Positions 2,345 to 31,053 of a stretch of DNA of 38,348 nt are shown piece after piece. The stretch is from IMG/VR virus record IMGVR_UViG_3300032278_000040, positions 1 to 38,348 of that record; one strand, 5' to 3'. Below the pieces are notes generated by a model that made no database searches, was not told the DNA's origin, and worked only from the letters and a program-made list of their open reading frames with translations. The stretch comes from a virus. The number at the start of each line of letters is the position of its first letter. Position 1 is the stretch's first letter. Made by a program: the position numbers and the translations under genes.

Positions 2345-2788
2345 TTACTCATTGTGCTGCGGGTCGTTATCTATCCGTTGACCCCAGTCTTCAATATGCC
2401 TGACAGGGATTTCCATGTCAGGGTTGACCTCGTTTGCGGCAGCGATCCTGTGGTGGCCCTGCCTGACCCTCTGCATAGTGCCCAGACTGTAGTCTTCAGT
2501 CGTTAGTTTCACCGGCACTTTGACCTGACCGCTCTCCTGTATGGCATCACGTACGTAGTCGTAACCTCTGGTGTAGGATTCGTCCAACTTACGATCCCAG
2601 AACTGGTCGTCGTCCTCTAGATAGTCTCCGCCACCTTCCCATGAGGACTCACCTTCTGAGTCAATCCACTCCTCTCCCTCGGACTCAATCCACTCCCGGT
2701 CGGGCTCGTGGAAGGGCAGGTCTATCAGGTGCTTGGCAGGCATGAACATCTGTAACTGCTGAGGGTTGCAGGCGTCTGAACTACTCAT
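2345..2788 (-). CDS. ParB/sulfiredoxin-like protein, 147 residues
   Basis: The C-terminal half carries the ParB N-terminal (ParB/Srx fold) signature: GHHRIAAA at residues 111-118, followed by NPDMEIPVRHI. The N terminus reads MSSSDACNPQQLQMFMPAKHLI and is nearly the same as that of the paralogue at 3155-3499. Between them is a very acidic stretch with a short internal repeat (EWIESEGE then EWIDSEGE). The start at 2788 is chosen over an upstream in-frame ATG at 2905 because of the shared MSSSD start and the ATGAGTAG overlap with the preceding gene. ParB-fold proteins can bind DNA, hydrolyse CTP or act as nucleases. No partner ParA is visible here, so partitioning is not implied. It is the last gene of the leftward operon. 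Confidence 0.8.
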   Translation of the reverse strand: MSSSDACNPQQLQMFMPAKHLIDLPFHEPDREWIESEGEEWIDSEGESSWEGGGDYLEDDDQFWDRKLDESYTRGYDYVRDAIQESGQVKVPVKLTTEDYSLGTMQRVRQGHHRIAAANEVNPDMEIPVRHIEDWGQRIDNDPQHNE

Positions 2789-3158
2789 CGTCCCACGGTC
2801 CAAACGGTGGGGTGTTCTCACGCATACTACGAGCCATTCGATCCATGTATTCCGTGGGTGAGTATGATCGGGCGTCCTGAACCCCTCCAAGTCCAAGGCT
2901 CTCAAAGGCTCCGTAGTAATCCTCCGCTACCCCTTCGTAAGCGTTGTCTCGGTCTACTACCATGCGTTGGGTTCCACCGTTAGTGGGTTTGTCGTACTCC
3001 ACCCATGCGTGTCCAAGATTCCGGCCTTCCATCATCATGGGTACCGTTGCGTGTACTACCGATATGTTCTCACGGCCCTCTTTTTCAAAGTCCATGCAGG
3101 TACGAAACGCCGTCCGATAGCAGTCCCCGAACTGTTTTCCTAATGATGAACTACTCAT
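2781..3158 (-). CDS. Papain-like small protein, 125 residues
   Basis: The pattern GDCYRTA near the N terminus, then VVHATVP, GHAWVEYD and VVDRDN, resembles papain/transglutaminase-fold proteins found in phages. The likely catalytic residues are C13, H50 and D69. The N terminus MSSSSLGKQF matches the LGDQF-type start of the genes at 598 and 3492-4304, but here the tag runs straight into the catalytic Cys segment. It overlaps its upstream neighbour by ATGA and its downstream neighbour by ATGAGTAG, so the three are translationally coupled. The substrate is unknown. Possible roles are a processing peptidase, an amidase or a toxin-like enzyme. Fold assignment comes from motif spacing only. Confidence 0.7.
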   Translation of the reverse strand: MSSSSLGKQFGDCYRTAFRTCMDFEKEGRENISVVHATVPMMMEGRNLGHAWVEYDKPTNGGTQRMVVDRDNAYEGVAEDYYGAFESLGLGGVQDARSYSPTEYMDRMARSMRENTPPFGPWDDE

Positions 3159-3499
3159 CGGTGTACCACCGGTATTTCCCTTGTCGGGTTGATGTCCTCA
3201 GAGATAGCAATACGGTGGTGGCCCTCGTAGACGTAGGTAGGCCCAACCTCCACTGGATTGAGCACCCCTCTCTTTAGGATGGATTCTCCGATTCTCTCAT
3301 CCTGCCCTTCCACGTTCACTAGATACTGGTTCTCTTGCCGATTGTCTTCCCATTTCCACTCATTTTCTCGGTTGCGCCCTTCACGCCACAGACCATGCGG
3401 CATCGAAGTGGGGTGGCTGGTCGCTTTCATCTTTATGAGTTCCCCAGCGGGGATGAACATACGCAACTGCTGTGGGTTGAGGCGGTCTGAACTACTCAT
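3155..3499 (-). CDS. ParB/sulfiredoxin-like protein, 114 residues
   Basis: Residues 65-113 read like a compact ParB N-terminal domain: ESILKRGVLNPVEV, then VYEGHHRIAIS (GHHR at 93-96), then NPTREIPVVH. The N terminus MSSSDRLNPQQLRMFIPAGELI is closely related, even at DNA level, to that of the gene at 2345-2788. It lacks the long acidic insert of that paralogue. The start at 3499 lies within an ATGAGTAG overlap with the upstream gene. No helix-turn-helix or dimerisation domain follows, so it is a stand-alone ParB-fold domain. Role unknown. Confidence 0.8.
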   Translation of the reverse strand: MSSSDRLNPQQLRMFIPAGELIKMKATSHPTSMPHGLWREGRNRENEWKWEDNRQENQYLVNVEGQDERIGESILKRGVLNPVEVGPTYVYEGHHRIAISEDINPTREIPVVHR

Positions 3500-4304
3500 T
3501 TTGAAGCGGCAAGCCTTGCCCGGTCCTGAGGCGTTCTTCGGCAGTGTAACTTTCGATGTCCTGTAGCCACCTGTCGTGTTGCTCTATTAGGCTATGAATA
3601 CCCCCATGAATGATCGTTTGACCCGAAGTGATTCCCGCTTGTTCAAAGCGGTCAATTCGCCTGTCAATCTGACCACGGTCGGAGATGAACTCTGGGTCTA
3701 AGGTTTCATCTCTTTGAGGGTACCCCAGCCCTTGTTCAGTTTCCTCGTCGGCAAGGTGCGTTACCTCTCTCATTGCGCCCTCACGAGTCAGCCGCTGCGC
3801 CGTCAAAGGTTCATTAGGTAGGCGTTGCCCTACGGTATTCGTTCTGGAAGAGTCCCACTCATGTCCGTATCTCAACACTGGCCTAATGTTGGTTTCTATT
3901 CCTTGGTTAGTTCTACGCTGAGGATGCCACGGGTCCACATACAACTTCTCAAAGTCGAAGGTCTCGTCTTCACCGGGCCTGTCCAACTCTTCAGAGATTG
4001 CCTGAAAGTCCCACTCATGGTGGACTGGGACGCCCTCCGCCACTTGGCTTCTTTGGCTTCTAAACGGCGGGCCCTCCCCGAACTGAAATGGCCCGGATGG
4101 TCCGAGGGCTTGATGTCGCCCTATTACTGGTATGCTAACATTCGACCCGGCGAGCGGGTTGGACAACTCTATCTGTCCAAACCCTTCGTCAATCTCCCCG
4201 ACGTGTCCACCGGGACGCCATTCCGACATGGACGTGAAGTTCACGTGTCGAAAGTGCTCAAAGGGGTCGACCCCGAACTGATCTCCTAGTGATGGACTAC
4301 TCAT
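3492..4304 (-). CDS. Accessory protein of 270 residues with LGDQF-type N terminus
   Basis: It begins MSSPSLGDQFGVDPF and is a likely paralogue of the N-terminal part of the gene at 598-2139. The shared order is LGDQF, DPF, an IPVxG...AL segment, then a DFQAISE segment. The C-terminal part is charged and helix-rich in appearance, with no recognisable domain. There is no signal peptide or membrane segment. The start at 4304 is preferred over an ATG at 4406 because it restores the MSS tag and the ATGAGTAG overlap with the upstream gene. It lies inside the leftward operon with the ParB-like and papain-like genes. Confidence 0.75.
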   Translation of the reverse strand: MSSPSLGDQFGVDPFEHFRHVNFTSMSEWRPGGHVGEIDEGFGQIELSNPLAGSNVSIPVIGRHQALGPSGPFQFGEGPPFRSQRSQVAEGVPVHHEWDFQAISEELDRPGEDETFDFEKLYVDPWHPQRRTNQGIETNIRPVLRYGHEWDSSRTNTVGQRLPNEPLTAQRLTREGAMREVTHLADEETEQGLGYPQRDETLDPEFISDRGQIDRRIDRFEQAGITSGQTIIHGGIHSLIEQHDRWLQDIESYTAEERLRTGQGLPLQNE

Positions 4305-4560
4305 CTTTCGTGTAGCCTTCTCGGATGTTCCAGCCTCTGGGCTTAACCTCCCCGGGGTACTGCTTCCACGGGTTTGACATGCTGCCATCCGACCCCTTAT
4401 AGCCACCCCATAGACCTTCTCCTACAAGGTCTTCTTGGGGGGGTGCGGGTGTGTTTCCCTCTCCGCTAGCGGGTCCATAACCTTCGGACGGTGGTTTACC
4501 ACTAAGAAAGGCCCCCCACTCGCGGAATACATGCTTGAGTTGTCCACCGAATCTGTGCAT
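4297..4560 (-). CDS. Small Gly/Pro-rich protein, 87 residues, unknown
   Basis: The protein starts MHRFGGQLKHVFREWGAFLSGKPP. It continues as a low-complexity Gly/Pro/Trp sequence ending IREGYTKDE. No family is recognised. On the minus strand a TACACT hexamer (4566-4571) ends 5 nt before the ATG, so it may have its own leaderless start. It overlaps the next gene by ATGAGTAG. This coupling supports translation of the frame even though the sequence itself is uninformative. Confidence 0.6.
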   Translation of the reverse strand: MHRFGGQLKHVFREWGAFLSGKPPSEGYGPASGEGNTPAPPQEDLVGEGLWGGYKGSDGSMSNPWKQYPGEVKPRGWNIREGYTKDE

Positions 4561-5330: not shown

Positions 5331-5488
5331 TGGCAAAGTTGAGTTCATCACAGTTTGGTGGAAAGAATATAGGATACTCCCTGTCCAAAGGCTCCGCTTG
5401 GAAAGCCAGCCGTGGTCCCAAGTATACAATCAGGGCACCTAAGTCCCCTTCCATCAAGCCTGTATACAAACGATACAAGGCAAAGTGA
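5330..5488 (+). CDS. Small basic protein, 52 residues
   Basis: The frame reads MAKLSSSQFGGKNIGYSLSKG and continues with many Lys and Arg, ending VYKRYKAK. It has a net strong positive charge and no acidic residues that I can see. Its start codon overlaps the stop of the upstream gene (TAATG), which supports translation. The SSSQFGGK segment recalls the LGxQF tag of nearby genes. Composition suggests nucleic-acid binding or binding to an acidic partner. No family is recognised. Confidence 0.65.
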   Translation: MAKLSSSQFGGKNIGYSLSKGSAWKASRGPKYTIRAPKSPSIKPVYKRYKAK

Positions 5489-5492
5489 CCAT

Positions 5493-5918
5493 ATGACTGA
5501 CCAACCACACCAGCAGGGCCTTGGCGGTAGCAAGGAAGTGTCAGAGAGAATAAAGGCATTTAATCGTGGCGATCTCGTCCACGAACGTGCGGGACCTGAT
5601 CACAAACCCACCTCAGGCGACATGACCATGCAGGAGTTTGCTGACGGTTGGGGCGTAAGCCTAGAGGAAGCCAAGCGCAGGTTCACTCACTTCCGAATGA
5701 ACAACCCTAAAACAGATCGCTACTTCAAGTCTGGCACCAGTGGACAGCCCATGTCTAGGGATAGGTCTAATAGGGACCGCACTGGCGAGGCTGACAAACG
5801 CAGGGCAAGGCGTCGGGGTCCACGTACAGATAAATCTACTTCTTACGACACATACACTCGTGAAGAGTTGATGCGATATAGGGAAGAAGAAGCACAGCGT
5901 ATTCGGGACGAGAAATGA
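5493..5918 (+). CDS. Accessory protein, 141 residues, GTSGQ box
   Basis: The start at 5493 (MTDQPHQQGLGGSKEV) is chosen because it follows the previous stop by 4 nt; an upstream ATG at 5412 would overlap the 52-residue gene. Residues 48-75 (TMQEFADGWGVSLEEAKRRFTHFR) look like a small helical, possibly helix-turn-helix-like segment. The box YFKSGTSGQP (GTSGQ at 81-85) matches GTHGQ boxes in three other genes. A basic RRARRRG run follows. The HQQGLGGS start also recurs inside the gene at 12326-13078. It overlaps the next gene by ATGA. Function unknown. Confidence 0.7.
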   Translation: MTDQPHQQGLGGSKEVSERIKAFNRGDLVHERAGPDHKPTSGDMTMQEFADGWGVSLEEAKRRFTHFRMNNPKTDRYFKSGTSGQPMSRDRSNRDRTGEADKRRARRRGPRTDKSTSYDTYTREELMRYREEEAQRIRDEK

Positions 5919-6838
5919 CCATCAGAGCAGGCCGCTTCTTCAGGGCCGGTACCCACGGACAGTTTAAACCGGGATACTACCATCATCGTGACCCTAATAG
6001 TCCGGGGGATATTACTTACGCAAGTTCTGACAAAGAAGGGTTTGGGGCGGTGCTTACAGTAACGCCTGCTAGGGAAGTGACCTACGGCGGGCCCGGGTTC
6101 TATGATGATAACGACCCAAGGAACGACCCTGACTACTATGATGAGTGGAGAGACAATACAGAGCAGTGGGGCCCGGTTCCTGATGATGCGGAGGACTACG
6201 ACCCCGGGCCAACACAGGGAGAACTGTTCAAACAGGAACCCGGCTATGCGAGCACACTGGCTGGTAATATAGAAAGCCGTAGTAGGACACTGTCGCTACT
6301 TGGAATGGCCGCTCGTCACCAAGCAAGGAACTTCGGGCCTGCTCTGGCGAGCGGTTCTCTGACACCAGACTCCTTCGGTCTCCTAAAGCATATACGGAAA
6401 TCCGAAACGGGTAAGGCCAACCAGTCCGTAAGGTGGTCCGGGGGTAGTCGCAACGAGCCCGAAGGGCCCTCAGAGGAACACGGGGATATGCGCCCGACTA
6501 CACACGAGGGACGCACCATGCCAATTCACGAACACCATCTCGCTGAGGATTTCCCTAGCGCAATGATAGGGGCTATTCCCGATTCTGGTGACTACCATTG
6601 GGAAGAAGGGGACCTTTCTGAAGTTGACCGCATCTTGGCCCAACCTCAGAGGTTCGGTCTTAGGGAGTTCACTAAGGCCGAGGCGAAAGAGGGTAAGCAG
6701 TTCGTACGAGACCAGTGGACGAATATCAAGAAGAAGGGTAAGAAGAGTGCTAGGATGCCTAGGCAACTAACTAGGCAACAGAGCCTGTTTGAACGAACAG
6801 AACGAGAGAAATGGGGAGCAACCTATGACCATGTTTGA
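5915..6838 (+). CDS. Accessory protein, 307 residues, N-terminal GTHGQ box
   Basis: The N terminus is MTIRAGRFFRAGTHGQFKPGYYHH, placing the GTHGQ box at residues 12-16. The rest is hydrophilic, with an Asp/Tyr-rich segment (residues 66-105), a middle helical part and a basic C-terminal end (KKKGKKSARMPRQLTRQQ). No known domain is recognised. The RxFRAGTxGQFxPG pattern loosely recalls the R-x-x-G-R/Q-F segments found in some phage head proteases and MuF-type proteins, but this is weak. It overlaps its neighbours on both sides, so it is translationally coupled. Confidence 0.7.
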   Translation: MTIRAGRFFRAGTHGQFKPGYYHHRDPNSPGDITYASSDKEGFGAVLTVTPAREVTYGGPGFYDDNDPRNDPDYYDEWRDNTEQWGPVPDDAEDYDPGPTQGELFKQEPGYASTLAGNIESRSRTLSLLGMAARHQARNFGPALASGSLTPDSFGLLKHIRKSETGKANQSVRWSGGSRNEPEGPSEEHGDMRPTTHEGRTMPIHEHHLAEDFPSAMIGAIPDSGDYHWEEGDLSEVDRILAQPQRFGLREFTKAEAKEGKQFVRDQWTNIKKKGKKSARMPRQLTRQQSLFERTEREKWGATYDHV

Positions 6839-8548: not shown

Positions 8549-8920
8549 ATGATACCTAGAAAGACATCCACAGTACAAACAGAGGAAGACTACCAAAGCC
8601 TTCAGGCGCGTTCAGGACGTTATGCGGGCATCGTAGCGGCCCTCACCGGGAACCGTGGCAAGGGAACCGGGCAGACCTCCCGCTCAATGCACTTCCACGA
8701 CAAGCACCTCGCTACCAAGGAAGGCCACGATCCCGACGATCCACACGCCGTGACTGGCCCCATCCAGCCTGCCTCCACCGAGGAAGTTTCTGCTCGTCCT
8801 GTACCACCGCCCTATGATTGGGCCAAGGAGGATGACCAGTACACCGAGGCCGGTACACATGGACAGTCTATGACTATGCAGTATAACTATAACCCGGTAC
8901 CCGAATATACACAGTCGTAG
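8549..8920 (+). CDS. Accessory protein, 123 residues, C-terminal GTHGQ box
   Basis: The N-terminal half has a short helix (EEDYQSLQARSGRYAGIVAALTG) and His/Asp-rich segments. Near the C terminus the sequence YTEAGTHGQSM places the GTHGQ box at residues 102-106. In three genes this box is in different positions (N-terminal, middle, C-terminal), which suggests a portable binding motif rather than part of a fixed domain. The start codon directly follows the stop of the previous gene. No function can be assigned. Confidence 0.65.
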   Translation: MIPRKTSTVQTEEDYQSLQARSGRYAGIVAALTGNRGKGTGQTSRSMHFHDKHLATKEGHDPDDPHAVTGPIQPASTEEVSARPVPPPYDWAKEDDQYTEAGTHGQSMTMQYNYNPVPEYTQS

Positions 8921-9668: not shown

Positions 9669-9809
9669 ATGGCCACTCAAGGAACCTACCCTGAAGAGCG
9701 CCGTGAGGCTGGAGCCAACTCCCAACTGTTTAACTACTTGGAAACCATGGACAGGTCCACCAGTGACCTAGGTGATGGTCCCACTTGGTTCATGGATGAC
9801 CCTAGTTAG
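9669..9809 (+). CDS. Small acidic protein, 46 residues, unknown
   Basis: The frame reads MATQGTYPEERREAGANSQLFNYLETMDRS and continues to a Trp- and Asp-rich end. It begins 5 nt after the previous stop, consistent with the tight spacing of this operon. No strong ribosome site is visible. The last 20 nt of the frame form the first, degenerate unit of the 22-bp tandem repeat that follows, so coding and repeat function overlap at its end. Moderately supported as a gene. Confidence 0.5.
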   Translation: MATQGTYPEERREAGANSQLFNYLETMDRSTSDLGDGPTWFMDDPS

Positions 9810-9904
9810 GCATACTTACCTAGGTCACCAGTGACCCCCACATAGGTCACCAGTGACCCCCACTTGGTGCATGGGTGACCCCCACTTAGGTCATGGGTGA
9901 ACTG
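9787..9904 (+). repeat. Tandem 22-bp iteron-like repeats
   Basis: Three adjoining 22-bp units occupy 9822-9843, 9844-9865 and 9866-9887. They are flanked by partial units at 9787-9807 (inside the end of the 46-residue gene) and 9888-9904. Units 1 and 2 differ at one base and contain the dyad GGTCAC-CA-GTGACC. Unit 3 keeps the GTGACCCCCACTT core. The 22-bp period equals about two helical turns, as in iterons and operator arrays. The array lies about 170 bp upstream of the RNR gene. It could be a replication origin element or a regulator binding array. Confidence 0.7.
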
Positions 9905-10059: not shown

Positions 10060-11979
10060 ATGCCCCTTTCAGAAGAGTTCCTCAGTCCCTACACCTCCAA
10101 AACTCCCCCATGGGGCTTTGACGGACTGGGTTACATCGTCTATAAACGGACCTACGCACGTCTTCTGGAGGATAAGGAGCACACCACCGAGGAGTGGTGG
10201 CAGACCCTTCGCCGGGTGGTGAACGGGGCCGAAGCAATAGGTGCTGGGCTGACGGAGGCTGAGTCCGAACGCCTGTTCGACTATATGTTCAACCTCAAGG
10301 CCAGCGTCGGTGGTCGGATGCTCTGGCAGTTGGGAACGGCCAACAACGAGCGCCTCGGTGGGGATTCCCTCGTCAACTGTTGGTACGTGGACCTCACCAA
10401 ACCCGAGGACTTCTCATGGATGTTTGAGAGGCTCATGCTAGGAGGGGGCGTCGGGTTCTCCGTTACGGACCCGTCGGCTTTGGGAACTGTCCGTCAGGGC
10501 ACGGTGCAACACATCAACGAGCCAGATGCCGACTTCATCGTGCCGGATAAGCGCGAGGGATGGGCTCAGGCCGTCCTGCTGGCCCTCAGGACGTATCTGG
10601 GGGGGAAAGATGACTCTACCTACCTCTCGTACAACACAAGCCTTGTAAGGCCCGCTGGAGCGGCTATCAGGACCTTTGGTGGAAAGGCTTCCGGCCCCGG
10701 AATCTTGGTGGAGGGTGTTGAGAAGATCACTGCTGTACTCAATGGGGCTGTTGGTAGGAACCTGACCTCTGTGGAGGTCTTGGACATCGCCAACATCATC
10801 GGGTCCGTGGTCGTCGCTGGTAACGTGCGCCGTTCGGCTGAGATTGCACTTGGCCGTCCAGATGATGTAAACTATCTGAACGCCAAGCGGTGGGATCTGG
10901 GAACGATCCCCATGCACCGATCCATGTCCAACAACTCTGTAGTTGTTGACGACATCAACGAACTTCCTGAGGAGTTCTGGGAGGGGTACAGCGGTAATGG
11001 TGAACCCTACGGAATGTTCAATCTTACGGCCAGCAGGATGTTCGGTCGTGTGCCAGAGATTCTGCCCGACCAAAGCATTGTTGGAACCAACCCTTGTGCG
11101 GAAATTGGTCTGGCTAATCGTGAATCGTGTAATCTCAGTGAGGTCTTCCTTCCGAATGTTACGTCCGAAGAAGAACTCGTTGACATCACTAGGCTCATAT
11201 ACAAGGTCCAGAAGGCTATCGCAGCAATGCCCTACCTTGACCGAGAATCCGACGAAATAACTAGCCAAAACATGAGGTTGGGTCTGGGAGTCACGGGGAT
11301 TGCTCAGGCTCAGGACAAGTTGGGATGGCTGGGTACAACATACACAGCCCTTCGGGCGTTTGACCGGATCTGGTCAGCAGCAAACGGCTGGCCTGAGTCA
11401 GTACGGTTGACTACTGTAAAGCCCAGCGGGACCCTGTCGCTACTTGCAGGAGTGACCCCGGGAGTCCACCCCGGATTCAGTCAGTACCATATTCGCAGGG
11501 TCAGGATGTCTGTTGGCGACCCCCTGCTTCAGTACTGTTCAGATTTGGGGTACACGGTGGAGTGGGTTCGTAACTTGGATGGCAGCCGTTCGGATACCAC
11601 CAAGTTGGTGGAGTTTCCCTGCCAGTTCCCTCAGGACACCATGTTGGCTGAAGACGTGTCCGCAGTACAGCAGATGGAACTACAGCGGACCCTACAGGAG
11701 CAGTGGGCTGACAACTCTGTGTCCGTGACCATATACATCAAGCCCGGGGAGTTGGGGGAGGTACGGTCCTACTTGGAAAGTCACTGGAGGACAATGAAGT
11801 CAGTTTCCTTCCTGCTGCATACCACCCATGGCTTCGATCAGGCCCCTCTGGAGGCAATCAACAAGGAGGATTACACACGTATGGTAGAAGGCCTAGTGAC
11901 TTCCACGGAGGGACCTCAGGGCGGGATGAGCGAGTTGTTGGATGACGAATGCCTCAGTGGAGCGTGTCCCATCCGGTGA
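10060..11979 (+). CDS. nrdJ: Adenosylcobalamin-dependent (class II) ribonucleotide reductase
   Basis: This enzyme reduces ribonucleotides to deoxyribonucleotides for phage DNA synthesis, using vitamin B12 as radical source. The catalytic set of the monomeric class II family (Lactobacillus leichmannii RTPR) is visible. C107 (LVNCWYV) fits RTPR C119. NPCAEI with C346 and E348 fits C408/E410. C357 (RESCNL) fits C419; the 346-357 spacing is identical. The C-terminal pair C631/C636 in ECLSGACPIR fits C731/C736, with the same spacing of five. The PSGT loop is also present (VKPSGTLSLLAG). At 639 residues it is about 100 shorter than RTPR, so some allosteric or insert segment is reduced. No separate small subunit or activase is needed or seen. 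A leaderless-type promoter precedes it. Confidence 0.95.
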   Translation: MPLSEEFLSPYTSKTPPWGFDGLGYIVYKRTYARLLEDKEHTTEEWWQTLRRVVNGAEAIGAGLTEAESERLFDYMFNLKASVGGRMLWQLGTANNERLGGDSLVNCWYVDLTKPEDFSWMFERLMLGGGVGFSVTDPSALGTVRQGTVQHINEPDADFIVPDKREGWAQAVLLALRTYLGGKDDSTYLSYNTSLVRPAGAAIRTFGGKASGPGILVEGVEKITAVLNGAVGRNLTSVEVLDIANIIGSVVVAGNVRRSAEIALGRPDDVNYLNAKRWDLGTIPMHRSMSNNSVVVDDINELPEEFWEGYSGNGEPYGMFNLTASRMFGRVPEILPDQSIVGTNPCAEIGLANRESCNLSEVFLPNVTSEEELVDITRLIYKVQKAIAAMPYLDRESDEITSQNMRLGLGVTGIAQAQDKLGWLGTTYTALRAFDRIWSAANGWPESVRLTTVKPSGTLSLLAGVTPGVHPGFSQYHIRRVRMSVGDPLLQYCSDLGYTVEWVRNLDGSRSDTTKLVEFPCQFPQDTMLAEDVSAVQQMELQRTLQEQWADNSVSVTIYIKPGELGEVRSYLESHWRTMKSVSFLLHTTHGFDQAPLEAINKEDYTRMVEGLVTSTEGPQGGMSELLDDECLSGACPIR

Positions 11980-12161: not shown

Positions 12162-12326
12162 ATGATCGTTACGTTTACCATAACTACGCCAATGATCCAT
12201 GACGCTCGGGAGCAGGCCGTCCGTCTGGCTAAGGCGCAAGGCTTTGAACGAGTGACTGTTCTGTCAGTTATACGGTCAGGGATGGACAGTTGGGAAGTTA
12301 AACTTCAGTTGTTCAGGAGTATGTAA
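12162..12326 (+). CDS. Small protein, 54 residues
   Basis: The frame reads MIVTFTITTPMIHDAREQAVRLAKAQGFERVTVLSVIRSG and ends WEVKLQLFRSM. The predicted beta-alpha-beta-beta order (VTFTI, then a helix AREQAVRLAKAQG, then VTVLSVI and WEVKLQLF) resembles a class of short phage proteins, but I cannot name the family. It opens the operon that leads to the three tag-tailed genes. It overlaps the next start by TAATG. Confidence 0.7.
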   Translation: MIVTFTITTPMIHDAREQAVRLAKAQGFERVTVLSVIRSGMDSWEVKLQLFRSM

Positions 12327-13078
12327 TGGCACGTAGATCAAACCTCAAAAATCTAATTTATGACGCCTTCAATAGTCCGGGCGAGGGTGGGGCAACGGCC
12401 TCTAACCGGAACTGGGTTGCCACCCGAATGGGGAACTACGTGGGGGTAGAACACCACGGTACCCATATGTTCAATGTGACCCGAGCAGGGGTTGTGGAGC
12501 CGGTTGACCGGGGCCACGGGTCTACCTCTGATCGGTGTGGAGTGCGGAGCATTACTGCGGGCTTTGGATGCGGAGGCCCTCAGGGCGTCGGGTACAGAGA
12601 GTTGTACGACGACGAGCCTATGAACAGGATGAGTGGTGACCAGTGGAGAAACGCCATTCAGCGAGACCCAGAACTTAGGGCAACACCAGACCACACGCAG
12701 GGGCTCGGGGGGTCTAGGTCGACCAATATAACCTTTGGTCCTACTGGAGAAGCACGAATAGGTGAGGCTAGGCGAAGCAGGAGCATCAGAGGGGTCATAG
12801 GTGACCCTGTCCCGGCTGGGAGGCCGCAACGCTTTACCAACAGACTGGGAAGCGATGACTGGGTAGCACGTGACCCTGCCAGACCGAGCACTCACAGTGG
12901 ACTGCCCGGAGATGACTTCAGTTACAGTGACATGAACCGCCGGGGTCCTAACTATAATGAGCCCGATCCCTTCGACTTCTCAGATCCAGAGGAAGCCCGT
13001 CAAGCCCAGTCCATCACTGACATGGAAGAAACCCTACGTGGGCTTGACGAGCGTAGTCAGAGACCTAGGAGCGAATAA
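12326..13078 (+). CDS. Accessory protein, 250 residues, with DPF-type C-terminal tail
   Basis: The N-terminal region (residues 27-75) contains NYVGVEHHGTHMFNVT...GHGSTSDRCGVRSI. This loosely follows the pattern of a small phage domain with an H-x-T...G-x-S/T-x-T/S...I signature (DUF8033-like), at low confidence. The middle has a QGLGGS segment also seen at the start of the gene at 5493. The C terminus (from residue 209) reads NYNEPDPFDFSDPEEARQAQ and continues with an acidic helix. The next two genes end in nearly the same sequence. It overlaps the next gene by TAATG. Confidence 0.75.
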   Translation: MARRSNLKNLIYDAFNSPGEGGATASNRNWVATRMGNYVGVEHHGTHMFNVTRAGVVEPVDRGHGSTSDRCGVRSITAGFGCGGPQGVGYRELYDDEPMNRMSGDQWRNAIQRDPELRATPDHTQGLGGSRSTNITFGPTGEARIGEARRSRSIRGVIGDPVPAGRPQRFTNRLGSDDWVARDPARPSTHSGLPGDDFSYSDMNRRGPNYNEPDPFDFSDPEEARQAQSITDMEETLRGLDERSQRPRSE

Positions 13079-13566
13079 TGCCAACACCAGACGGCCCCCA
13101 GTTTATTGAGTTTTCGGACCCAGACGGCTCTCAGTTTCAGAACCTCTGGGACTCTGCCATGGCTGATGCCCAAGCCAATCTGGATGCACTCTCTGATGAG
13201 GAGTTGGAAGGCGGTGCCTTCTTGGCTGATCCCGGCGGCGGAGGTGAGTGGATTGACGACCCTGAGGCTAGCGTCTCAGACGCTATTAGAGGCATGATAG
13301 ATGCGTCACAGATTGAGGAGACAGGACACACTCAGGCAGAGCAGCCGGTAACTCACGGCGGGATTCTCCCTACAGAGAATCAGATCAGTGCCGCTGCGGA
13401 TAGGGATAGGGCTAGGGAGGCCGGTCACACACCAGATATGACGGACATGCAAGGTAGAGCCTTTAGACCTAACTATGACGAGCCTGACCCCTTTGACCGC
13501 TCAGACCCTGAGCAGGCCCGACAAGCGAAGGCCATTGAAGACATGAACGAGTTGTGGGACGAGTAA
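13078..13566 (+). CDS. Acidic protein, 162 residues, MPxPxGPQF start and DPF-type tail
   Basis: It starts MPTPDGPQFIEF, like the genes at 13566 and 30817. The middle is acidic and helical (FQNLWDSAMADAQANLDALSDEELEGG). From residue 132 it reads NYDEPDPFDRSDPEQARQAK and ends in an AIEDMNELWDE helix. The protein has both an N-terminal and a C-terminal tag shared with neighbours, with little other recognisable content between them. No catalytic residues stand out. Its start and stop both overlap neighbours (TAATG). Confidence 0.75.
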   Translation: MPTPDGPQFIEFSDPDGSQFQNLWDSAMADAQANLDALSDEELEGGAFLADPGGGGEWIDDPEASVSDAIRGMIDASQIEETGHTQAEQPVTHGGILPTENQISAAADRDRAREAGHTPDMTDMQGRAFRPNYDEPDPFDRSDPEQARQAKAIEDMNELWDE

Positions 13567-14153
13567 TGCCAGAACCAACTGGCCCCCAGTTTAATAATCC
13601 TCAGGATAGGGCGTTCGCTAGTAGGCATCACCCAACATACGACGCTGCGGAGGCAATGGAGCGGATAGAACCTTCTGATTTAGGTTTCACCGTCCACCCA
13701 CAGAGCCCCGAAGAGTTTGAGGCAGAGAGTCACGACGAGTACCGTATTCGCTTGTTCCACAGGGGAACCTATCAGGCCGGTGCTGACTACTTCACCGACG
13801 ACTGGGACGAAGTCCAAGAGATGATTAGCGATCCCTCCAATTGGGGCGGCGGTGGCACGGTGCATAACCTGTTGCCTGACCCTACAACAGACTATGCAAT
13901 TGCTGAACAGGCCGACTACGTCCAGCACCTAGAGGATACCGGCATGGACGAGCCGTTCCGATTCCCGTACCGTGACCGGACCCTATCCGGGGTCGACTGG
14001 AGTGGTGGCGTGGCGCAACTTTCCGGGGTCGACTGGAGTGGTGGCGGGGAGGGTCCAGACTACTCACAGCCCGATCCCTTTGACCGTTCTGATCCAGAAC
14101 AGGCTCGCCAAGCGAAAGCCATCGAAGATATGAACAAGACGCTAGGGGAGTGA
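13566..14153 (+). CDS. Acidic protein, 195 residues, MPxPxGPQF start and DPF-type tail
   Basis: It starts MPEPTGPQFNNPQDR; the start at 13566 overlaps the previous stop. Residues 35-110 (DLGFTVHPQSPEEFEAESHDEYRIRLFHRGTYQAG...) could form a small mixed domain, as YRIRLFHRGTYQAGADYFTDDWDEVQEMI has a beta-beta-helix look. A tandem LSGVDWSGG repeat encoded by an exact 25-bp direct repeat lies at about residues 141-160. The C-terminal tail (from 163) repeats the DPFDRSDPEQARQAK sequence of the previous gene. No known family is recognised. Confidence 0.75.
   Translation: MPEPTGPQFNNPQDRAFASRHHPTYDAAEAMERIEPSDLGFTVHPQSPEEFEAESHDEYRIRLFHRGTYQAGADYFTDDWDEVQEMISDPSNWGGGGTVHNLLPDPTTDYAIAEQADYVQHLEDTGMDEPFRFPYRDRTLSGVDWSGGVAQLSGVDWSGGGEGPDYSQPDPFDRSDPEQARQAKAIEDMNKTLGE
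13986..14046 (+). repeat. 25-bp in-frame direct repeat
   Basis: An exact 25-bp sequence occurs at 13986-14010 and 14022-14046. The 36-bp period keeps the reading frame and duplicates 12 residues including SGVDWSGG. Confidence 0.85.
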
Positions 14154-14165: not shown

Positions 14166-14894
14166 ATGGTATGGTACGTAAACTACAGTATTGTCAGGGG
14201 CCTACCATGGGAGAGGCTTCTCATTATCAAGGACCGAAGGTCCCATCGGGTTGTAACTCCCTCCACCGCCCGTGCCTATATTCAGACCAGTACTACCTCT
14301 GTGATGGAAGTAACCACGGAGGTTACCGGTGAGAACGGCGTGCAGTTGTCACTCACTGCTGCCCAGACCAAGGATCTCCCGACAGGGGAACTGGCATATG
14401 ATGTGTTCGCAACGTGTAAACTGTATGGAGCAGATGTAGAAAAGCAGGTCAGCAAGGGGCTGGTCAATGTCTCTACGACCGACCGGGTAACCCCGGAGGA
14501 GGGCTCCAAAGCCTTGGAACTCAGGTACACACAGAAGACAGACTTCTACCGGACCTTCACTTGGAAGGATTCCGACGATGTCGTCCAGACCGTAGATGGG
14601 GCCTACATGCAGGCCAAGACCGCTGCGGGCGTCACAGTCTTGGACCTCAGGTGGTACTCGTCTAAGCCCGCAGAAGGTACTGTTATTGTGTTGAGTCCAG
14701 CCAACACCCGTGGTTACCTGATTGCGGGTGAGGCGGCAGACACCACTCTGGACATGCACATCTCTGATGCGAACGATATAGCGGCTGGTACCTACTCTTA
14801 CGACCTGTTTGTGCGGGACTCCGCTGGAGATTGGGATGTACTGGCCGCAGGCAGTCTAGTAGTTGAGGCCGCAACTTCAAGCAATCCGTACTAG
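14166..14894 (+). CDS. Baseplate/fibre protein with two BppU-like beta domains
   Basis: The sequence contains two similar beta-rich segments. The first covers about residues 10-80 (LLIIKDRRSHRVVTPSTARAYIQT...LPTGELAYDVFA). The second covers about 125-235 (FYRTFTWKDSDDVVQTVDGAYMQAK...IAAGTYSYDLFVRD). Each ends in an (A/P)(A/T)GxxxYDxF motif typical of BppU-like upper-baseplate N-terminal domains and related fibre adaptors. It is likely a virion adaptor that attaches fibres. It opens the fibre operon, and the next gene starts 2 nt after its stop. Confidence 0.75.
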   Translation: MVWYVNYSIVRGLPWERLLIIKDRRSHRVVTPSTARAYIQTSTTSVMEVTTEVTGENGVQLSLTAAQTKDLPTGELAYDVFATCKLYGADVEKQVSKGLVNVSTTDRVTPEEGSKALELRYTQKTDFYRTFTWKDSDDVVQTVDGAYMQAKTAAGVTVLDLRWYSSKPAEGTVIVLSPANTRGYLIAGEAADTTLDMHISDANDIAAGTYSYDLFVRDSAGDWDVLAAGSLVVEAATSSNPY

Positions 14895-25247: not shown

Positions 25248-25676
25248 ATGGGCCACCAAGAATCCCTACAAAGCGCTAAACAAAAGATTGATGAGGTCCT
25301 ACAAGACCTCCCCGGCACCACATCCAAGGCATCAGTAGGTATACAGTTAAAGTCAACACAGTCCTTGCTTGATAAGGCCAAGGACAACATCGCCTATGTT
25401 CTTGGGCTGCCTACTGCCATCACAGGAGCATTTGGCTTCCTGTGGAACTCTTCCTCTGATGAGGCCGCCCTCCAGTATCAGGTTGACCAGTTAGAGGCCG
25501 CTGTAGCCGATCTGAAGGCCGAGGGGGACCTTCTGGGGGGAGGGGTCAAGAACTGGTCTCTGAACCCCTCAGACGCCCCCGGTGGCTCTCTGACGGCAAT
25601 CCTAGTGGCTATGGGTATCCTAGTCCTTCTGGGGTTGCTATTCTGGTACCAGAACCGACGTAAGCAACGACAGTGA
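25248..25676 (+). CDS. Membrane protein, 142 residues
   Basis: The first 50 residues look helical and contain SLQSAKQKIDEVLQDL and SLLDKAKDNIAYVLG. A possible weak hydrophobic stretch lies near 50-67 (YVLGLPTAITGAFGFLW). A clear membrane helix follows at about 113-135 (SLTAILVAMGILVLLGLLFWY), and a basic tail NRRKQRQ ends the protein, so the C terminus is likely cytoplasmic. It overlaps the GTG start of the giant lipoprotein gene (GTGA). The two are likely to act together, perhaps at the cell envelope. Confidence 0.75.
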   Translation: MGHQESLQSAKQKIDEVLQDLPGTTSKASVGIQLKSTQSLLDKAKDNIAYVLGLPTAITGAFGFLWNSSSDEAALQYQVDQLEAAVADLKAEGDLLGGGVKNWSLNPSDAPGGSLTAILVAMGILVLLGLLFWYQNRRKQRQ

Positions 25677-28600
25677 GGCGGCTCTCGGCGGTGTTAGCCG
25701 CCGGGGCACTCTTCTTTGCAGGGTGTTCTCCCGGCGGGGTTCCAGAAGAAGTTAGTACTCCGATACTCTTCCCAGAAGTGGTAGAGACCACTACTACCCC
25801 CCCTACGACGGTCCCAGATAGCCCTATCCCATCTACCACGACCATACCCCTACCCCCTACTACTACTACTACCCCACAGGTGGTGGAAGATAGCCCCGCC
25901 CCGGTTGGGCACGCTCTTACGTTCACCCCGGAGGAGGACTTCTTTTCCTTTGAGAACTTCGGGGGTGGTGAGGCACCTGCTGATCTGACGGTCAACATGG
26001 CTCGTCGCTTGTATGGTGACGATCAGGTATGTTCTGAGGTGACGGACAACAGGTGTACACCATATCCGGTGATTCTCCAGTTGATCTCACAAGCCAACCG
26101 GTCCATGCGCGGGGGTCTTTGTGAGGGTTTGGCCGTTCTCAGCCTCCGCTTGGCAGGGGATCTGAAGACGTTGGCGTCGTTCCAAGGGACCGACACCGTC
26201 GCCCAGTTGATAAAGGCTGACCCGGCGCTCCTGTCGGAGATCGCCTACTGGTACGTCACTCAGTTCGCCATAGAGGTTCAGCAGGAGGCGTCCTCCTATC
26301 TGGAGATGTCCCCCAAGCAACTGGCTGAGGTGCTGCTGTATGACTTTGCTGAGTCCGAGGCTGGGAACAAGTACACCGGGTTCACTATGGGTATCTACTC
26401 CGAGCACGGCGGTCACGCTGTCACTCCATACAAGGTGGTGCAGGTCCCGACCGGGTACCGGATCTACGTTTACGACAGTAACTGGCCCTCCTCTGAGCGG
26501 TGGATAGATGTGGACGAGGACGGCTGGGTGTATGCCCTCGCTTCCACAAACCCCACCGAGCAGTCCGAAGCGTGGTCTGGGGGCACGGGAACTATGGAGT
26601 TGACCCCCATGAGTGTCCGTAGTGGCCCGTTCACCTGTGGGTTCTGCCCACAGGAAGGAACGACCAAGTCAGGGACGCTGCTTACGGTCGCTGCGTCAGG
26701 AAGCAAGCAGATGAGCCTTAAGATTGTCACGGAGAGTGGTCAAAGGCTGGGGTACTACGACGAAGGGTTTGTCAATGAGATCCCCGGTGCCACCTACCGC
26801 TACCTGATCTCAGGCCCCTCAACGTCTGATCCGGTGCTGGTGTTCCTGCCACCAGACGTGGAGTCATTCACCGCTGACGTTGAGGAGATAGATGTTCCCG
26901 CCCCGGAGGCTGTGGCAGATGCCACGATTTTAGGAGAAATCCCCAGCCCGGTTCCAGATGGTAATGGGATGGAACCCCCAGAGCAGGAACAGGAGGACTC
27001 TAACACCCAGAGGTTCTCTTTGCTAGTACTGAACGAAGAAAAGTCAGTTCAGATTGAAGCCACTGTGGACGAGGTCGCCGTTGAAGAAGAGGAAACTCAG
27101 TCCCTCCTCTCGTTCTCCGAGGCATCGGTGGAGGTTGCGGAGATTGAGGAAGCCACGGTCGCTATCGCCATAGACGCCCTTTCGGTTGAGGTGGAACTGG
27201 ATGAGGGACAGCAAATAGAACTGGTGTTCGCAGAGGAAAGTGACACTGACGAGCCAGAGATATTGGACCTGTCCATTCAGGATGCTCAGGGAGAGGTCCT
27301 AGCCGAGGTAGTGGTGGACGTGTCTGCTTACCGTGTGGAGACCACTACCCCCTCACGGGATGAGCCAGATAGCCCCATCCCAGAACCGGTGATACAGCCC
27401 GTTCGTCTTGAGATCACTTATGATGAGGTACTGGCCGAGGTAGTGCAAGAGGAAGAGGAGATCGAAGAGTGGGTTGCCTCTGACGCTGAGTACTTTCAAG
27501 CCGTAGCCGAGGGCCGCTTGGAAGAGGTACTTGGGGAGACATGGGTAGAGGAGATTGAGGAAATAGGTGACTGGGAACCGTTGGAGACGGATAGTGACTT
27601 CGATCTGGTGGAGGTCATACTTAGCGTGGACGAGGAGTACTGGGAAGATGAGCAGTGGGAGGCGGAGGATTTTGACGACGAGTATTTTGAGGAGCAGGAG
27701 GAGGAGTTTTTAGAGTTCTTCAACGAAGAGATAGAACTAGAGGAAGTCCTTGAGTTCGTAGAGGAACTAGAGGTTGACGAGTACTGGGAGGCTGAGATAG
27801 AGTTAGAGGAACCTGAACCCGAGCCCGAACCGGAGGTTGTCCCAGATCCCGAGCCCGAGGAAGAAGACGAATGGATAGAAAGCGACGAGAGTACAGAGGG
27901 AGAACTGGAAGACGAGAGTACAGAGGGAGAACTGGAAGACGAGAGTATAGAACCAGAACCAGAACCCGAGGTAGAGGAAGAACCAGAACTAGATGAGGAA
28001 GAACCGGAAGTTGAAGAACAGCCCGAGGAAGAACCGGAGGTCCCTGCTGAAACAGAAGAAGATCCAGCGCCAGAACCGGAGGAAGAAGAACCTGAACCGG
28101 AGGTTGTCCCAGAGCCAGAGGACAGTGACCCCGAAGAGGGTAGTGACCCCGACCCCGACCCCGACCCCGAAGAGGACAATGACCCCGAACCCGAACCCCC
28201 CGAAGAGCAGGACTACGAGGATAGTGCCCCCGAAGAAGACGACCACGTCGAAGTGGAAGAAGATCCTGAGGGGTCCGAAGAGCCTGAGCAGCCCGAAGAG
28301 CCCGAAGAGGAGATTCTCCCTGAAGTAGAAGAAGAGCCCACCCCCGATCCCGATCCCGAGGTTGTCCCAGAACCCACTCCCGACCCCGAGCCTGAGGTTG
28401 CCCCAGAGCCTGAACCGGTTGATCCCTACGAAGGTTGGGGCGACCTTCCACCGGGGTATGCGACATGGGGCGACTTTGAACAGGAGGTCGCAGCGGGGAT
28501 AGTCGCCCCCGCCTTCGCCGCGATCTTCCTGCCCGAAGACGTGGCAGCGGAGATCATCCCGGTCGCTGTTTATGTAGTGACCGGACCCATCTACGTGCCG

Positions 28601-29845
28601 ACCGCCACCTACGAGTACACCGACACCCCTATATCTGAAATCCTGTCGACTGAGGTCTCCACGGCTCAGACTGGCACGACTACCACTACGGAAGTAACCG
28701 GCACGGAGGTTACGGGCACCGAAGTCACCGGTACAGAGGTAACTGGTACAAACGTCACCGGCACAGAAGTCACTGCTACGAACGTCACTGGCACGGTAGT
28801 CACAGCAGATACAACCTCTATATTGAGCCGTGACGCAAATGACGGCCATTGGCACACTTGGGAGACAACGGAGACTTCGACTGCCACCACGACGGCCACG
28901 ACCACGGAGACTACGACAGCGGTTACGACCGCTACGACCACGGATATTACGACCGCTACGACCACGGCTACGACGGTTACTGACACCCTTGTCGATACTA
29001 CGACCGTGGTAGCCCGTACCGGATCGGACATGGAGACCTGTACCTTCTACGACGGCGTTGCCGCCGGATGCGCCACCGTGCGCGGGTGGAACCCTGAAAC
29101 GACGACAGCCAACACAGGCGACGCCTACACGGAAGCCAGCACTACGAGCGCCACGGCGGATGTTGTGACAAGTGCCACTACCAGCGCTACGGCAGATGTC
29201 GTCACGAGTGCCACAGCGGACGTTGTGACGACTGCGACTACAACGGCGAGCGAACAGGTTGAACAGGGCTGCTCCGAGGGCGGCTGGACCGGGATGGGAG
29301 ATTGGTGCATCGTCTCATCCGGTGGTCGCAACGACCATGACATGATCCAGTTCACTTTGGACGAGACGACGAATGTCGACATCAACGCTGAGTCAAACCT
29401 GACCTATCAACAGTTCGTTGCTGGCAACCATGAGTACGGCGATCCTTATATCTACCTGAACGAAGACAATAACTCTGACGAGGGGGATCATACGGGAGAT
29501 GAAAGCGCAATCACGGTTGGCAGTCTCATTGAATCAGACGATGACGGTGGCCGGGATTGTCCGACAAGCGGTAGCGGTGGAACATGCCAAGTCCCAAATA
29601 GTAGTTGGACTGATCCCGACGAAACTCCCACTGTGAGAGCATGTGTTAGTACCGGTACCGATTGTACGGGTCTTGTCGTAGGCGACCTGACTACCGGAGT
29701 CGCAGTCATCGACAACCCGAGCGATACTTGGGACAGCCGCATTGAGCGTCTTGACCTGCCCGCAGGCGATTACGTGGTGCGTGGCTCTGTTTACAGCACA
29801 GGGCACGACGGCTGGTATAGACTCACTATTAGTGAGGCCGAATAA
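25673..29845 (+). CDS. Giant lipoprotein, 1390 residues, with papain-like domain and acidic stalk
   Basis: The N terminus (MRRLSAVLAAGALFFAGC) is a lipoprotein signal with lipobox, so C18 would be lipidated. Residues 35-75 are a Thr/Pro linker. Residues about 130-275 look like a papain-fold peptidase: GLCEGL (C150), GGHAV (H248) and YDSN (D268/N270). Residues about 440-930 are extremely acidic, Glu/Pro-rich, partly as EPEPEPE runs. Residues about 1005-1045 carry repeated EVTGT units, and a Thr-rich segment follows to about 1120. The C-terminal 150 residues resemble a PPC-like beta domain. An envelope-anchored role is inferred from the signal. Such a protein is unusual in a phage. It starts GTG in a GTGA overlap and is followed by a ferredoxin at TAATG. 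Confidence 0.8.
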   Translation: MRRLSAVLAAGALFFAGCSPGGVPEEVSTPILFPEVVETTTTPPTTVPDSPIPSTTTIPLPPTTTTTPQVVEDSPAPVGHALTFTPEEDFFSFENFGGGEAPADLTVNMARRLYGDDQVCSEVTDNRCTPYPVILQLISQANRSMRGGLCEGLAVLSLRLAGDLKTLASFQGTDTVAQLIKADPALLSEIAYWYVTQFAIEVQQEASSYLEMSPKQLAEVLLYDFAESEAGNKYTGFTMGIYSEHGGHAVTPYKVVQVPTGYRIYVYDSNWPSSERWIDVDEDGWVYALASTNPTEQSEAWSGGTGTMELTPMSVRSGPFTCGFCPQEGTTKSGTLLTVAASGSKQMSLKIVTESGQRLGYYDEGFVNEIPGATYRYLISGPSTSDPVLVFLPPDVESFTADVEEIDVPAPEAVADATILGEIPSPVPDGNGMEPPEQEQEDSNTQRFSLLVLNEEKSVQIEATVDEVAVEEEETQSLLSFSEASVEVAEIEEATVAIAIDALSVEVELDEGQQIELVFAEESDTDEPEILDLSIQDAQGEVLAEVVVDVSAYRVETTTPSRDEPDSPIPEPVIQPVRLEITYDEVLAEVVQEEEEIEEWVASDAEYFQAVAEGRLEEVLGETWVEEIEEIGDWEPLETDSDFDLVEVILSVDEEYWEDEQWEAEDFDDEYFEEQEEEFLEFFNEEIELEEVLEFVEELEVDEYWEAEIELEEPEPEPEPEVVPDPEPEEEDEWIESDESTEGELEDESTEGELEDESIEPEPEPEVEEEPELDEEEPEVEEQPEEEPEVPAETEEDPAPEPEEEEPEPEVVPEPEDSDPEEGSDPDPDPDPEEDNDPEPEPPEEQDYEDSAPEEDDHVEVEEDPEGSEEPEQPEEPEEEILPEVEEEPTPDPDPEVVPEPTPDPEPEVAPEPEPVDPYEGWGDLPPGYATWGDFEQEVAAGIVAPAFAAIFLPEDVAAEIIPVAVYVVTGPIYVPTATYEYTDTPISEILSTEVSTAQTGTTTTTEVTGTEVTGTEVTGTEVTGTNVTGTEVTATNVTGTVVTADTTSILSRDANDGHWHTWETTETSTATTTATTTETTTAVTTATTTDITTATTTATTVTDTLVDTTTVVARTGSDMETCTFYDGVAAGCATVRGWNPETTTANTGDAYTEASTTSATADVVTSATTSATADVVTSATADVVTTATTTASEQVEQGCSEGGWTGMGDWCIVSSGGRNDHDMIQFTLDETTNVDINAESNLTYQQFVAGNHEYGDPYIYLNEDNNSDEGDHTGDESAITVGSLIESDDDGGRDCPTSGSGGTCQVPNSSWTDPDETPTVRACVSTGTDCTGLVVGDLTTGVAVIDNPSDTWDSRIERLDLPAGDYVVRGSVYSTGHDGWYRLTISEAE
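27884..27937 (+). repeat. 27-bp in-frame tandem repeat
   Basis: Two exact 27-bp units lie at 27884-27910 and 27911-27937, with a partial third copy after them. They encode a repeated nine-residue acidic unit (DESTEGELE) in the stalk of the giant lipoprotein. Confidence 0.85.
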
Positions 29846-30117
29846 TGAAAGTCTGGATCGACCAAGACCTCTGTACCGGTGACGGCCTGTGCGCCGAGAT
29901 ATGTCCTGACATCTTTGAGATGCACGACGACGGGTTGGCCTACGTCAAGGAAGTTGGGTGGCCGACCATGTACGGACCCGACGGAGCAGCCAAGGGTGAA
30001 CCCGTCTACCAGATGGCTACGGGTCTGGCCGGTGTCCCTGAGGAGCATTTGGAGGCTGTCATTGAATCGGCAGACGAGTGCCCCGGAGAGTGCATCTACA
30101 TAGAACTGGTGGAGTGA
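29845..30117 (+). CDS. Ferredoxin, 90 residues
   Basis: This is a small electron carrier. Motif C10-x2-D13-x2-C16-x3-C20-P lies at the N terminus, and CP (C79-P80) near the C terminus, with ESADECPGECIYIE typical of actinobacterial ferredoxins. The second ligand position is Asp, as in Pyrococcus furiosus ferredoxin (D14), where the cluster is a [4Fe-4S] with one Asp ligand; it can also hold [3Fe-4S]. C20 is the usual disulfide or spare cysteine. An insert at about 40-58 separates the two halves. The start overlaps the lipoprotein stop (TAATG). The electron donor and acceptor are unknown; no partner oxidoreductase is visible nearby. Confidence 0.9.
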   Translation: MKVWIDQDLCTGDGLCAEICPDIFEMHDDGLAYVKEVGWPTMYGPDGAAKGEPVYQMATGLAGVPEEHLEAVIESADECPGECIYIELVE

Positions 30118-30159: not shown

Positions 30160-30339
30160 GTGGAAACAGCAAACATTCAAATCAACCCACAGACCGTTAT
30201 CAACGAACTTCAGAACCGTCTTAATGCTTTGCAGGGCGAGAATGTCGTGCTGGCGGCGATGGTAACTGAACTTCGGGCCGTTCTGGAGGACGCAACCGAG
30301 GAGGCAACCGAGGAGGCAGCGGAGGATGGCGAGTCGTAA
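30160..30339 (+). CDS. Small coiled-coil protein, 59 residues
   Basis: It starts with GTG after an AAGGAG ribosome site. The sequence METANIQINPQTVINELQNRLNALQGENVVLAAMVTELRAVLEDATEEATEEAAEDGES has a clear leucine-heptad helix, like many short phage coiled-coil proteins, and ends in an acidic tail. Such proteins often act as assembly chaperones or tail/head connectors. It overlaps the next gene by 14 nt, so coupling is likely. No family name is assigned. Confidence 0.75.
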   Translation: METANIQINPQTVINELQNRLNALQGENVVLAAMVTELRAVLEDATEEATEEAAEDGES

Positions 30340-30817
30340 CTTTGGAGGCCCGGACAATGAGTTTGGAGTATACCCAGACAAGGGGTCTGGTTGGGAGAGG
30401 CTAAACCCAGAGACACTACTTACTGCTCAAGAAGAAGCCGACCTGCTAAACTCAGGGTTGTCTGGTGGCACCACCTTCTCGTTCACACAAGAGCAGGAAG
30501 AAGACATACTACAGGCGATTGGACGTGGAGAGGAAGCCCCTTCTGGGTACTTTGAGCCACAGTTTCCTGCTAGCACAAGGGTGCAGGCTTACCGGTGGGT
30601 GCCTGATGACATGGGTGAACCCCAAGGTATCGGTTCCATCTGTGTGCAGTTCATCAAGCGTGGCGACCGGTATGTTTACCCCAATGTGCCCTATGGTACC
30701 TACAAGATATTTTCCACCCCCGGCACCTCAAAGGGTAAGTTCATTAACGATGCCCTTGACCACAGCGGTTACCACCGAGCGACTGCCGATGAGGCGCTCT
30801 TCTTCAACGGATTCTGA
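30326..30817 (+). CDS. KTSC-like domain protein, 163 residues
   Basis: The N-terminal half is acidic and helix-rich. The C-terminal part (SICVQFIKRGDRYVYPNVPYGTYKIFSTPGTSKGKFINDALDHSGYHRA) follows the KTSC domain pattern: a VxF...YxY..VP core, then a SKGKFxN turn. The role of KTSC domains in phages is unclear. The ATG at 30326 follows a GGAGG site. It overlaps the next gene at TGATG. Confidence 0.65.
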   Translation: MASRNFGGPDNEFGVYPDKGSGWERLNPETLLTAQEEADLLNSGLSGGTTFSFTQEQEEDILQAIGRGEEAPSGYFEPQFPASTRVQAYRWVPDDMGEPQGIGSICVQFIKRGDRYVYPNVPYGTYKIFSTPGTSKGKFINDALDHSGYHRATADEALFFNGF

Positions 30818-31053
30818 TGCCTGAACCAGACGGTCCCCAGTTTGTTACCCCCCACCCCTCTGACTTTCCTTTCAGTTATGAAAGTCCGCCAGATCCCCCA
30901 CCATTTGCACGCCCCACTGACGCACGTCCGTGGGGTAAGAGCCCCTACCTTGATGCTCTTGAACTGTCGACATACGAGGAGTTTGGAGCGCCTACGCCCG
31001 AGGAACTAGAAACCAGTACCGCTGCATGGATTAAGTACAGCGAGAGCCTATAA
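30817..31053 (+). CDS. Small protein, 78 residues, MPxPxGPQF start
   Basis: The N terminus MPEPDGPQFVTP is shared with the genes at 13078 and 13566, although they are 17 kb away. The rest is Pro-rich at first and then acidic and helical (YLDALELSTYEEFGAPTPEELETSTAAWIKYSESL). No domain is recognised. It couples to its neighbours at both ends. Its tag is the only functional hint. Confidence 0.65.
   Translation: MPEPDGPQFVTPHPSDFPFSYESPPDPPPFARPTDARPWGKSPYLDALELSTYEEFGAPTPEELETSTAAWIKYSESL

Follow-up and report, generated by a model that had tools for sequence, protein, structure and literature searches.

Conserved peptides at the chain ends of exchangeable phage proteins as candidate sorting signals

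Encapsulin cargo is recognized by a short C-terminal loading peptide that is found on unrelated proteins, where it follows a flexible linker. In phage T4, a 10-residue N-terminal signal (CTS) loads many unrelated internal proteins (PMC9026906), and genes of the internal-protein type were found by means of this signal (PMC12373910). The packaging domain of eCIS payloads is a disordered N-terminal region that is both necessary and sufficient for loading (PMC10097599). For polyvalent proteins, packaging and injection have been predicted (PMC5512222).

The window analysed here is a stretch of 38,348 nt, given as one strand, from the IMG/VR record IMGVR_UViG_3300032278_000040. Three tandem genes at 12326, 13078 and 13566 (A, B and C) had been reported in an initial annotation to share a C-terminal tail, and this is confirmed by the ORFs, their translations and 19 invariant columns in the tail alignment. 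The features of the locus are listed below; X denotes the middle gene of a related contig, L184.

10060..11979, plus strand: gene that we take to encode a B12-type ribonucleotide reductase; it bounds the variable locus on the left, as in L016 and L184
12326..13078, plus strand: gene A, 250 aa (ORF and translation), composed of the N terminus MARRSNLKNLIY, a body without relatives, the THSGLPGDDFSYSDMN linker and the C-terminal tail
12944..13075, plus strand: tail of A, GPNYNEPDPFDFSDPEEARQAQSITDMEETLRGLDERSQRPRSE
13078..13566, plus strand: gene B, 162 aa, with N-terminal tag, a body homologous to the first part of L184 X, and tail
13078..13104, plus strand: N-terminal tag of B, MPTPDGPQF
13117..13137, plus strand: internal second tag-like copy in B, DPDGSQF, directly before QNLWDSAM
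13465..13563, plus strand: tail of B, RPNYDEPDPFDRSDPEQARQAKAIEDMNELWDE
13566..14153, plus strand: gene C, 195 aa, with N-terminal tag, a body homologous to the second part of L184 X, and tail
13566..13592, plus strand: N-terminal tag of C, MPEPTGPQF
14052..14150, plus strand: tail of C, GPDYSQPDPFDRSDPEQARQAKAIEDMNKTLGE
14166..14894, plus strand: gene of the MVWYVNY protein (phrog_1084; weakly LtfC-like); right border of the variable locus
30817..31053, plus strand: 78-aa gene with the start tag MPEPDGPQF and without a tail, adjoining a KTSC-like gene

Genes A and B as well as B and C overlap by one base (TAATG). The start of C is the ATG at 13566; the longer frame from the GTG at 13554 is a mechanical ORF only. 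The tail-fibre/structural module begins with the MVWYVNY gene. At 9809-9900, immediately ahead of the ribonucleotide reductase gene, a sequence of about 26 nt is present in four direct copies with 22-nt spacing (GTGACCCCCAC.TAGGTCA..GTGA); this repeat is possibly regulatory or origin-like.

The tail of A, B and C comprises about 33 residues of the form [GR]P[ND]Yx[EQ]PDPFDxS[DN]P..xRQAxxIxDM, and no copy was found in other frames across the whole window. It had been described as ending in a short acidic helix; the tail itself stands, but that of A is 11 residues longer and its end is not purely acidic. Compared at full length with their tails, the three proteins score above 500 of 500 shuffles. 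With the tails removed, the score of the A and B bodies was reached by 379 of 500 shuffles and that of A and C by 338 of 500. The pair B and C is marginal (17 of 500), an observation in favour of ordinary paralogy, in which all three would form one diverged family and the tail would be its C-terminal domain.

This similarity is clarified by contig L184, which has the same locus borders as the window and three genes between them. Its X protein (295 aa) reads, in order, MPTPDGPQF, the B body, the C body and a single tail, NPDYSQPDPFDFSDPEQARQAKAIEDMEETLRGLDERSNRRRNMR. In alignments to X, B is located at 1-60 and C at 65-182, and all tails fall on 252-281. At the point of the X junction ...HTQAE/SPQDRAF..., the window has instead a linker, an entire tail, TAATG and a fresh start tag. 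The same material is thus encoded with one tag and one tail in X and, in the window, as two genes that each have a tag and a tail of their own, from which it follows that tag and tail go with chain ends and not with bodies. X is the decisive relative in this comparison. Paralogy is hardly tenable and is refuted for B versus C: their bodies align to separate, non-overlapping parts of X, the A body matches neither of them, and a zinc-ribbon protein carries the tail too. The two findings by which the initial annotation would have been contradicted were not obtained: homology does not extend over whole proteins, and the tail does not belong to a single ordinary domain. The claim that the bodies are dissimilar is upheld by the shuffles, with the correction that B and C are neighbouring parts of one L184 chain. 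L184 itself (PBYU01000059.1) is labelled as the Gammaproteobacteria MAG NP21 but is a misbinned phage contig of the same group, with a ribonucleotide reductase, tagged genes and the MVWYVNY fibre module.

The tails of B and C are identical in 24 of 28 residues, and 14 of these 24 codons differ synonymously; fourfold sites differ at 7 of 10 positions. This divergence indicates that the tail is kept by selection as a peptide. Direct DNA duplication as the source of the three tails is ruled out by the same divergence.

The tail was searched directly in 2.9 million viral contigs, and also among terminase relatives and in a bacterial genome set. Outside the window it was found in seven genes of seven related contigs, five of them from the direct search, the sixth (L052) from the terminase relatives and the seventh (L184) from the bacterial genome set. 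Together with the window, ten tailed genes are present in eight contigs, and the tail is C-terminal in every one. It is carried by at least five body types (A, B, C, L002 and a zinc ribbon), which bears out the earlier description of a portable C-terminal tail on unrelated bodies. In L002, another body with the start MPEPTSPQF carries the tail at the same locus, between the ribonucleotide reductase and the MVWYVNY gene. The zinc-ribbon protein (CPRC...CSNCG, weakly phrog_2945) is encoded at a second locus on the opposite strand, between a ferredoxin and the KTSC-like gene, in five contigs (L003, L004, L005, L006 and L052). Tail subtypes differ slightly by locus, with RQAxxIxDM at the ribonucleotide reductase locus and AAQxxxIxExEQLFSxWDEERDR at the ferredoxin locus. 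Within the tail of L052 (477-632), the PFD.S unit is duplicated (PDPFDSSSPFDSSDP).

Among related records searched in their entirety, the tail was missing in 27 of 29 and in 12 of 12, so it belongs to one sub-lineage. A broader DNA pattern added no new contigs, and the tail therefore looks confined to this sub-lineage within IMG/VR. It follows that the tail would not be essential for any delivery of tagged proteins. Tag and tail are separable: the zinc-ribbon protein and A have a tail but no MP tag, and a tail is missing from many tagged proteins.

Across 412 ORF clusters, the peptide that recurs most often is the start tag, MP[AEKTI]P[DTN]GPQ[FW]. It was found in 13 non-homologous clusters, at the initiator Met every time and in 0 of 200 shuffles. 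This cluster count is inflated, since the tag pattern had served to fetch several of the contigs; contigs chosen otherwise give an unbiased figure of 5 of 165 clusters. An MPxPxGPQF start had been noted on two of the three proteins, correctly; these are B and C, and the window holds a third such start in the 30817 gene. At that locus, relatives encode other tagged bodies and, next to the ferredoxin, the tailed zinc-ribbon protein. A tag scan of genome contigs gave 25 matches, of which 24 are chance-like (wrong frame, random GC-rich ORFs) and only L184 is real. Codon choice within the tag varies freely, and the preceding 18 bases show no match, which identifies the tag as a peptide signal.

One homologous body is found with and without the tag (MPIPDGPQF versus METIYKETH). 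At the position of DPDGSQF in B, L110 and L184 X have a single tag copy followed by a QNLW/QSLW module, as if the new start of B had been placed ahead of an older one. Members of an ADP-ribosyltransferase-like family begin with MPKPTGPQF, MPKPDGPQW, MPAHEHLNKILF, MSADHLNLDLF or MAARSNLHQTQF, or with none of these. Judged by eye, the LN..[LQ]F start weakly resembles an alternative tag. A broad pattern that includes it was found in 16 clusters, where shuffles gave a mean of 3.2; this count also covers many tags of the first kind. The start of A, MARRSNLKNLIY, bears a faint visual likeness to the LN..[LQ]F kind and is possibly a second type of start tag.

Other short N termini are shared by accessory-module proteins, namely MSSSDRLNPQQL, MSSPSLGDQFG, MSSSSLGKQFG and MNSPDDPRFG (compare MPEPDDPRFG in L184). 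They are located in the window at 2345-4406 (minus strand), 598 and 4785, and at 7154-9498 in L131. The motif [YF]xx[AS]GT[HSE]GQ recurs in unrelated accessory-module proteins at N-terminal, internal and C-terminal positions. It is present in the window at 598-2139 (residue 321), 5412-5918, 5915-6838 and 8549-8920, and also in L131 (7555-8298) and L152 (1824-2369); a processing site or linker is possible.

Between the ends, the proteins are mosaics. YFLADPSGGGEW is common to B, L002, L006 and L052, a THSGLPGDEFxYxDMN linker to A, L002, L003, L006 and L052, and HTPDMxDxxGRAFRPNY to B and L004. L005 (also L048; IMGVR_UViG_3300010883_001728) and L006 (also L049; IMGVR_UViG_3300046467_000706) share 99.46% identity over 9886 bp; a linker segment of 84/99 bp then differs, after which the two contigs continue at 93% identity. 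The swapped segment encodes the linker directly ahead of the tail and is a direct snapshot of module exchange. More generally, bodies and linkers appear to exchange freely between fixed ends. Such swapping would be expected if the ends were kept as DNA homology for recombination and body exchange, with the peptides idle. That explanation is very improbable and largely refuted, since the DNA of tail and tag has diverged synonymously and the peptides have been kept.

The tail consists of a PDPFD segment rich in Pro and Asp, followed by S-[DN]-P as a helix cap and by an amphipathic helix, and it is placed at the end of a flexible linker. In an AlphaFold2 model of the zinc-ribbon protein, the linker has a pLDDT below 50 and the C-terminal helix after PDPFD (168-201) is the best-predicted part; with a whole-model mean pLDDT of 49.5, the model is only indicative. 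Short invariant ends, a flexible linker and a variable body together have the anatomy of a docking peptide. Asp and Glu account for 18-23% of residues in B, C and most tailed proteins and for 14% in A, and B, C and most tailed proteins are probably largely disordered. Ends of this kind might instead be caps that make acidic, disordered chains more stable, by limiting proteolysis or aggregation, or that aid translation, with no docking involved. The acidity and probable disorder agree with this, and coupled translation at the TAATG overlaps could be influenced by a start tag. We regard caps as unlikely, because specific residues (PDPFD.S.P, GPQF) are kept and not general composition, synonymous change is free and the upstream start context is not conserved.

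Searches with the bodies gave little. The A body has no relatives in phage records (tblastn, E<1) and is unmatched in Pfam and PHROGs, even as a fragment at E 5. A suspected resemblance of the A body to a small domain that is common in phages could not be demonstrated. No fold or defence-family match was obtained for A, B or C in Pfam, PHROGs and PADLOC; C contains a short phrog_7884 stretch (residues 54-80, E 7e-5). The B body as query against viral contigs returned nothing, and nothing was found with the alignment of C and L184 X as query, where the patterns used were short.

Some tagged bodies in relatives do resemble effector enzymes. One tagged protein is ART-PolyVal-like (E 5.5e-4); this match, like those of other tagged or tag-like proteins to ART families, does not reach the Pfam gathering score. 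An AlphaFold2 model of the ART-like tagged protein, made without an alignment, has a mean pLDDT of 39.5 and is not informative. Neighbours in the same module that carry other short N termini include an Arr-like ART (5e-5), a clear GNAT (1.4e-11), a ParB_N-like protein (5e-4) and PARP-like transferases.

The ribonucleotide reductase and ferredoxin loci are both located among structural or packaging genes. The 100-kb relative G006 encodes a tail sheath, a portal and a major head protein, and the tail sheath identifies the group as contractile-tailed. The ferredoxin (window 29845-30117) is about 70% identical to those of 2-4 Mb Actinomycetota genomes and absent among isolated phage records; the nearest isolated terminase is that of Streptomyces phages (47%). 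From these two similarities alone we infer an actinobacterial type of host, and the lineage would be one of contractile-tailed marine actinobacterial phages. Beside the second locus, the conserved gene at 30326-30817 has a weak KTSC match (PF13619, E 0.064, below gathering). The gene at 25673-29845, kept in relatives, encodes a predicted 1390-aa lipoprotein with long acidic Pro/Glu and TEVTGTEVT repeats.

Our main reading, to which we assign a probability of roughly 0.4, is that the tail and MPxPxGPQ[FW] are portable terminal sorting peptides by which modular, effector-like accessory proteins are loaded into the particle. As far as sequence comparison goes, the ends are portable, fixed at chain termini and conserved as peptides, and the bodies swap. 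The docking or cargo-loading role proposed earlier for the tail would extend to both ends: they would dock to a partner, this partner would be a virion component, and the proteins would be injected. Every chain that is made separately would carry a start tag and, within one sub-lineage, a C-terminal tail as well. The assembly machinery (scaffold, capsid or tail) would recognize these ends late in infection, which would let many different small proteins enter the particle and be delivered along with the DNA. Points against this reading are the restriction of the tail to one sub-lineage, the incomplete coupling of tag and tail, the lack of a known effector fold in the A, B and C bodies, the ART matches below gathering scores, and the failure to recognize a prohead protease among the structural genes scanned.

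Alternatively, the ends could direct all these proteins to a shared partner in the infected cell, such as a host protein or an assembly built by the phage, rather than to the particle. Terminal conservation, linker disorder and the helix would suit any docking peptide, and several phages keep tagged proteins without a tail. Considered as context, the location of both loci among structural and packaging genes and the presence of the tag on effector-enzyme-like proteins favour the particle, and we consider a partner in the cell somewhat doubtful. Genomic context and the T4 precedent make particle loading the leading idea.

More tentatively, the two ends may form a two-ended labelling of cargo. 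A universal N-terminal tag and a helical C-terminal tail of one branch would sort a rapidly changing set of injected effectors, and the succession of tail, stop, start and tag at domain borders would split multidomain chains into separate cargoes. Any new gene could then become deliverable by gaining both ends, and the tag would be a sequence handle for effectors in uncultured phages. If the ends are loading signals, they provide a simple rule for recognizing injected effectors where the bodies are unrecognizable, as in abundant uncultured marine phages, and effectors would diversify by body exchange between fixed ends. Alongside the T4 CTS, they would also represent a second answer to the same problem, unrelated in sequence, and a cargo-loading handle in contractile phages.

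Neither tag nor tail matches a known family. Polyvalent proteins (PMC5512222) are similar in the kinds of domains found near the tagged genes (ADP-ribosyltransferase, GNAT, ParB-like), but they are large multidomain chains with at least two conflict-repertoire domains each, whereas the genes described here are mostly separate, small and provided with common ends. No polyvalent-type domains were found in A, B or C, and L184 X joins two bodies of unassigned function. The payload packaging domains of contractile injection systems (PMC10097599) likewise combine a disordered terminal region, varied payloads and a contractile machine; they are longer and unconserved and need an ATPase, in contrast to the nearly invariant tag of 9 residues.

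The tail resembles the loading peptide of encapsulin cargo in its C-terminal position, unrelated bodies and flexible linker. It differs in being longer, helical and set in a phage context; no shell gene was seen among the genes read, and the capsid gene of G006 matches phage major head proteins. With the T4 CTS of IPI-III, the tag shares a short length (about 10 residues), an N-terminal position on unrelated small accessory proteins of variable loci and the replacement of bodies between related phages. MPxPxGPQ[FW] was always located at the initiator Met in the 13 non-homologous clusters (the upward-biased count). The sequences are unlike, a conserved C-terminal tail is present here in addition, and packaging is here a prediction. 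The gp21-type cleavage motif is LxE/IxE. By inspection, neither this motif nor CTS residues are present in the tag, and no prohead protease was recognized in a non-exhaustive scan of the structural genes. By analogy, the two-ended tagging scheme, of which the tail is one part, would work like a targeting-sequence system, but by sequence it does not belong to the T4 CTS family. The comparison with T4 is better founded than that with encapsulins, because accessory proteins of an enzyme-like kind in related phages bear the same N-terminal tag as these genes.
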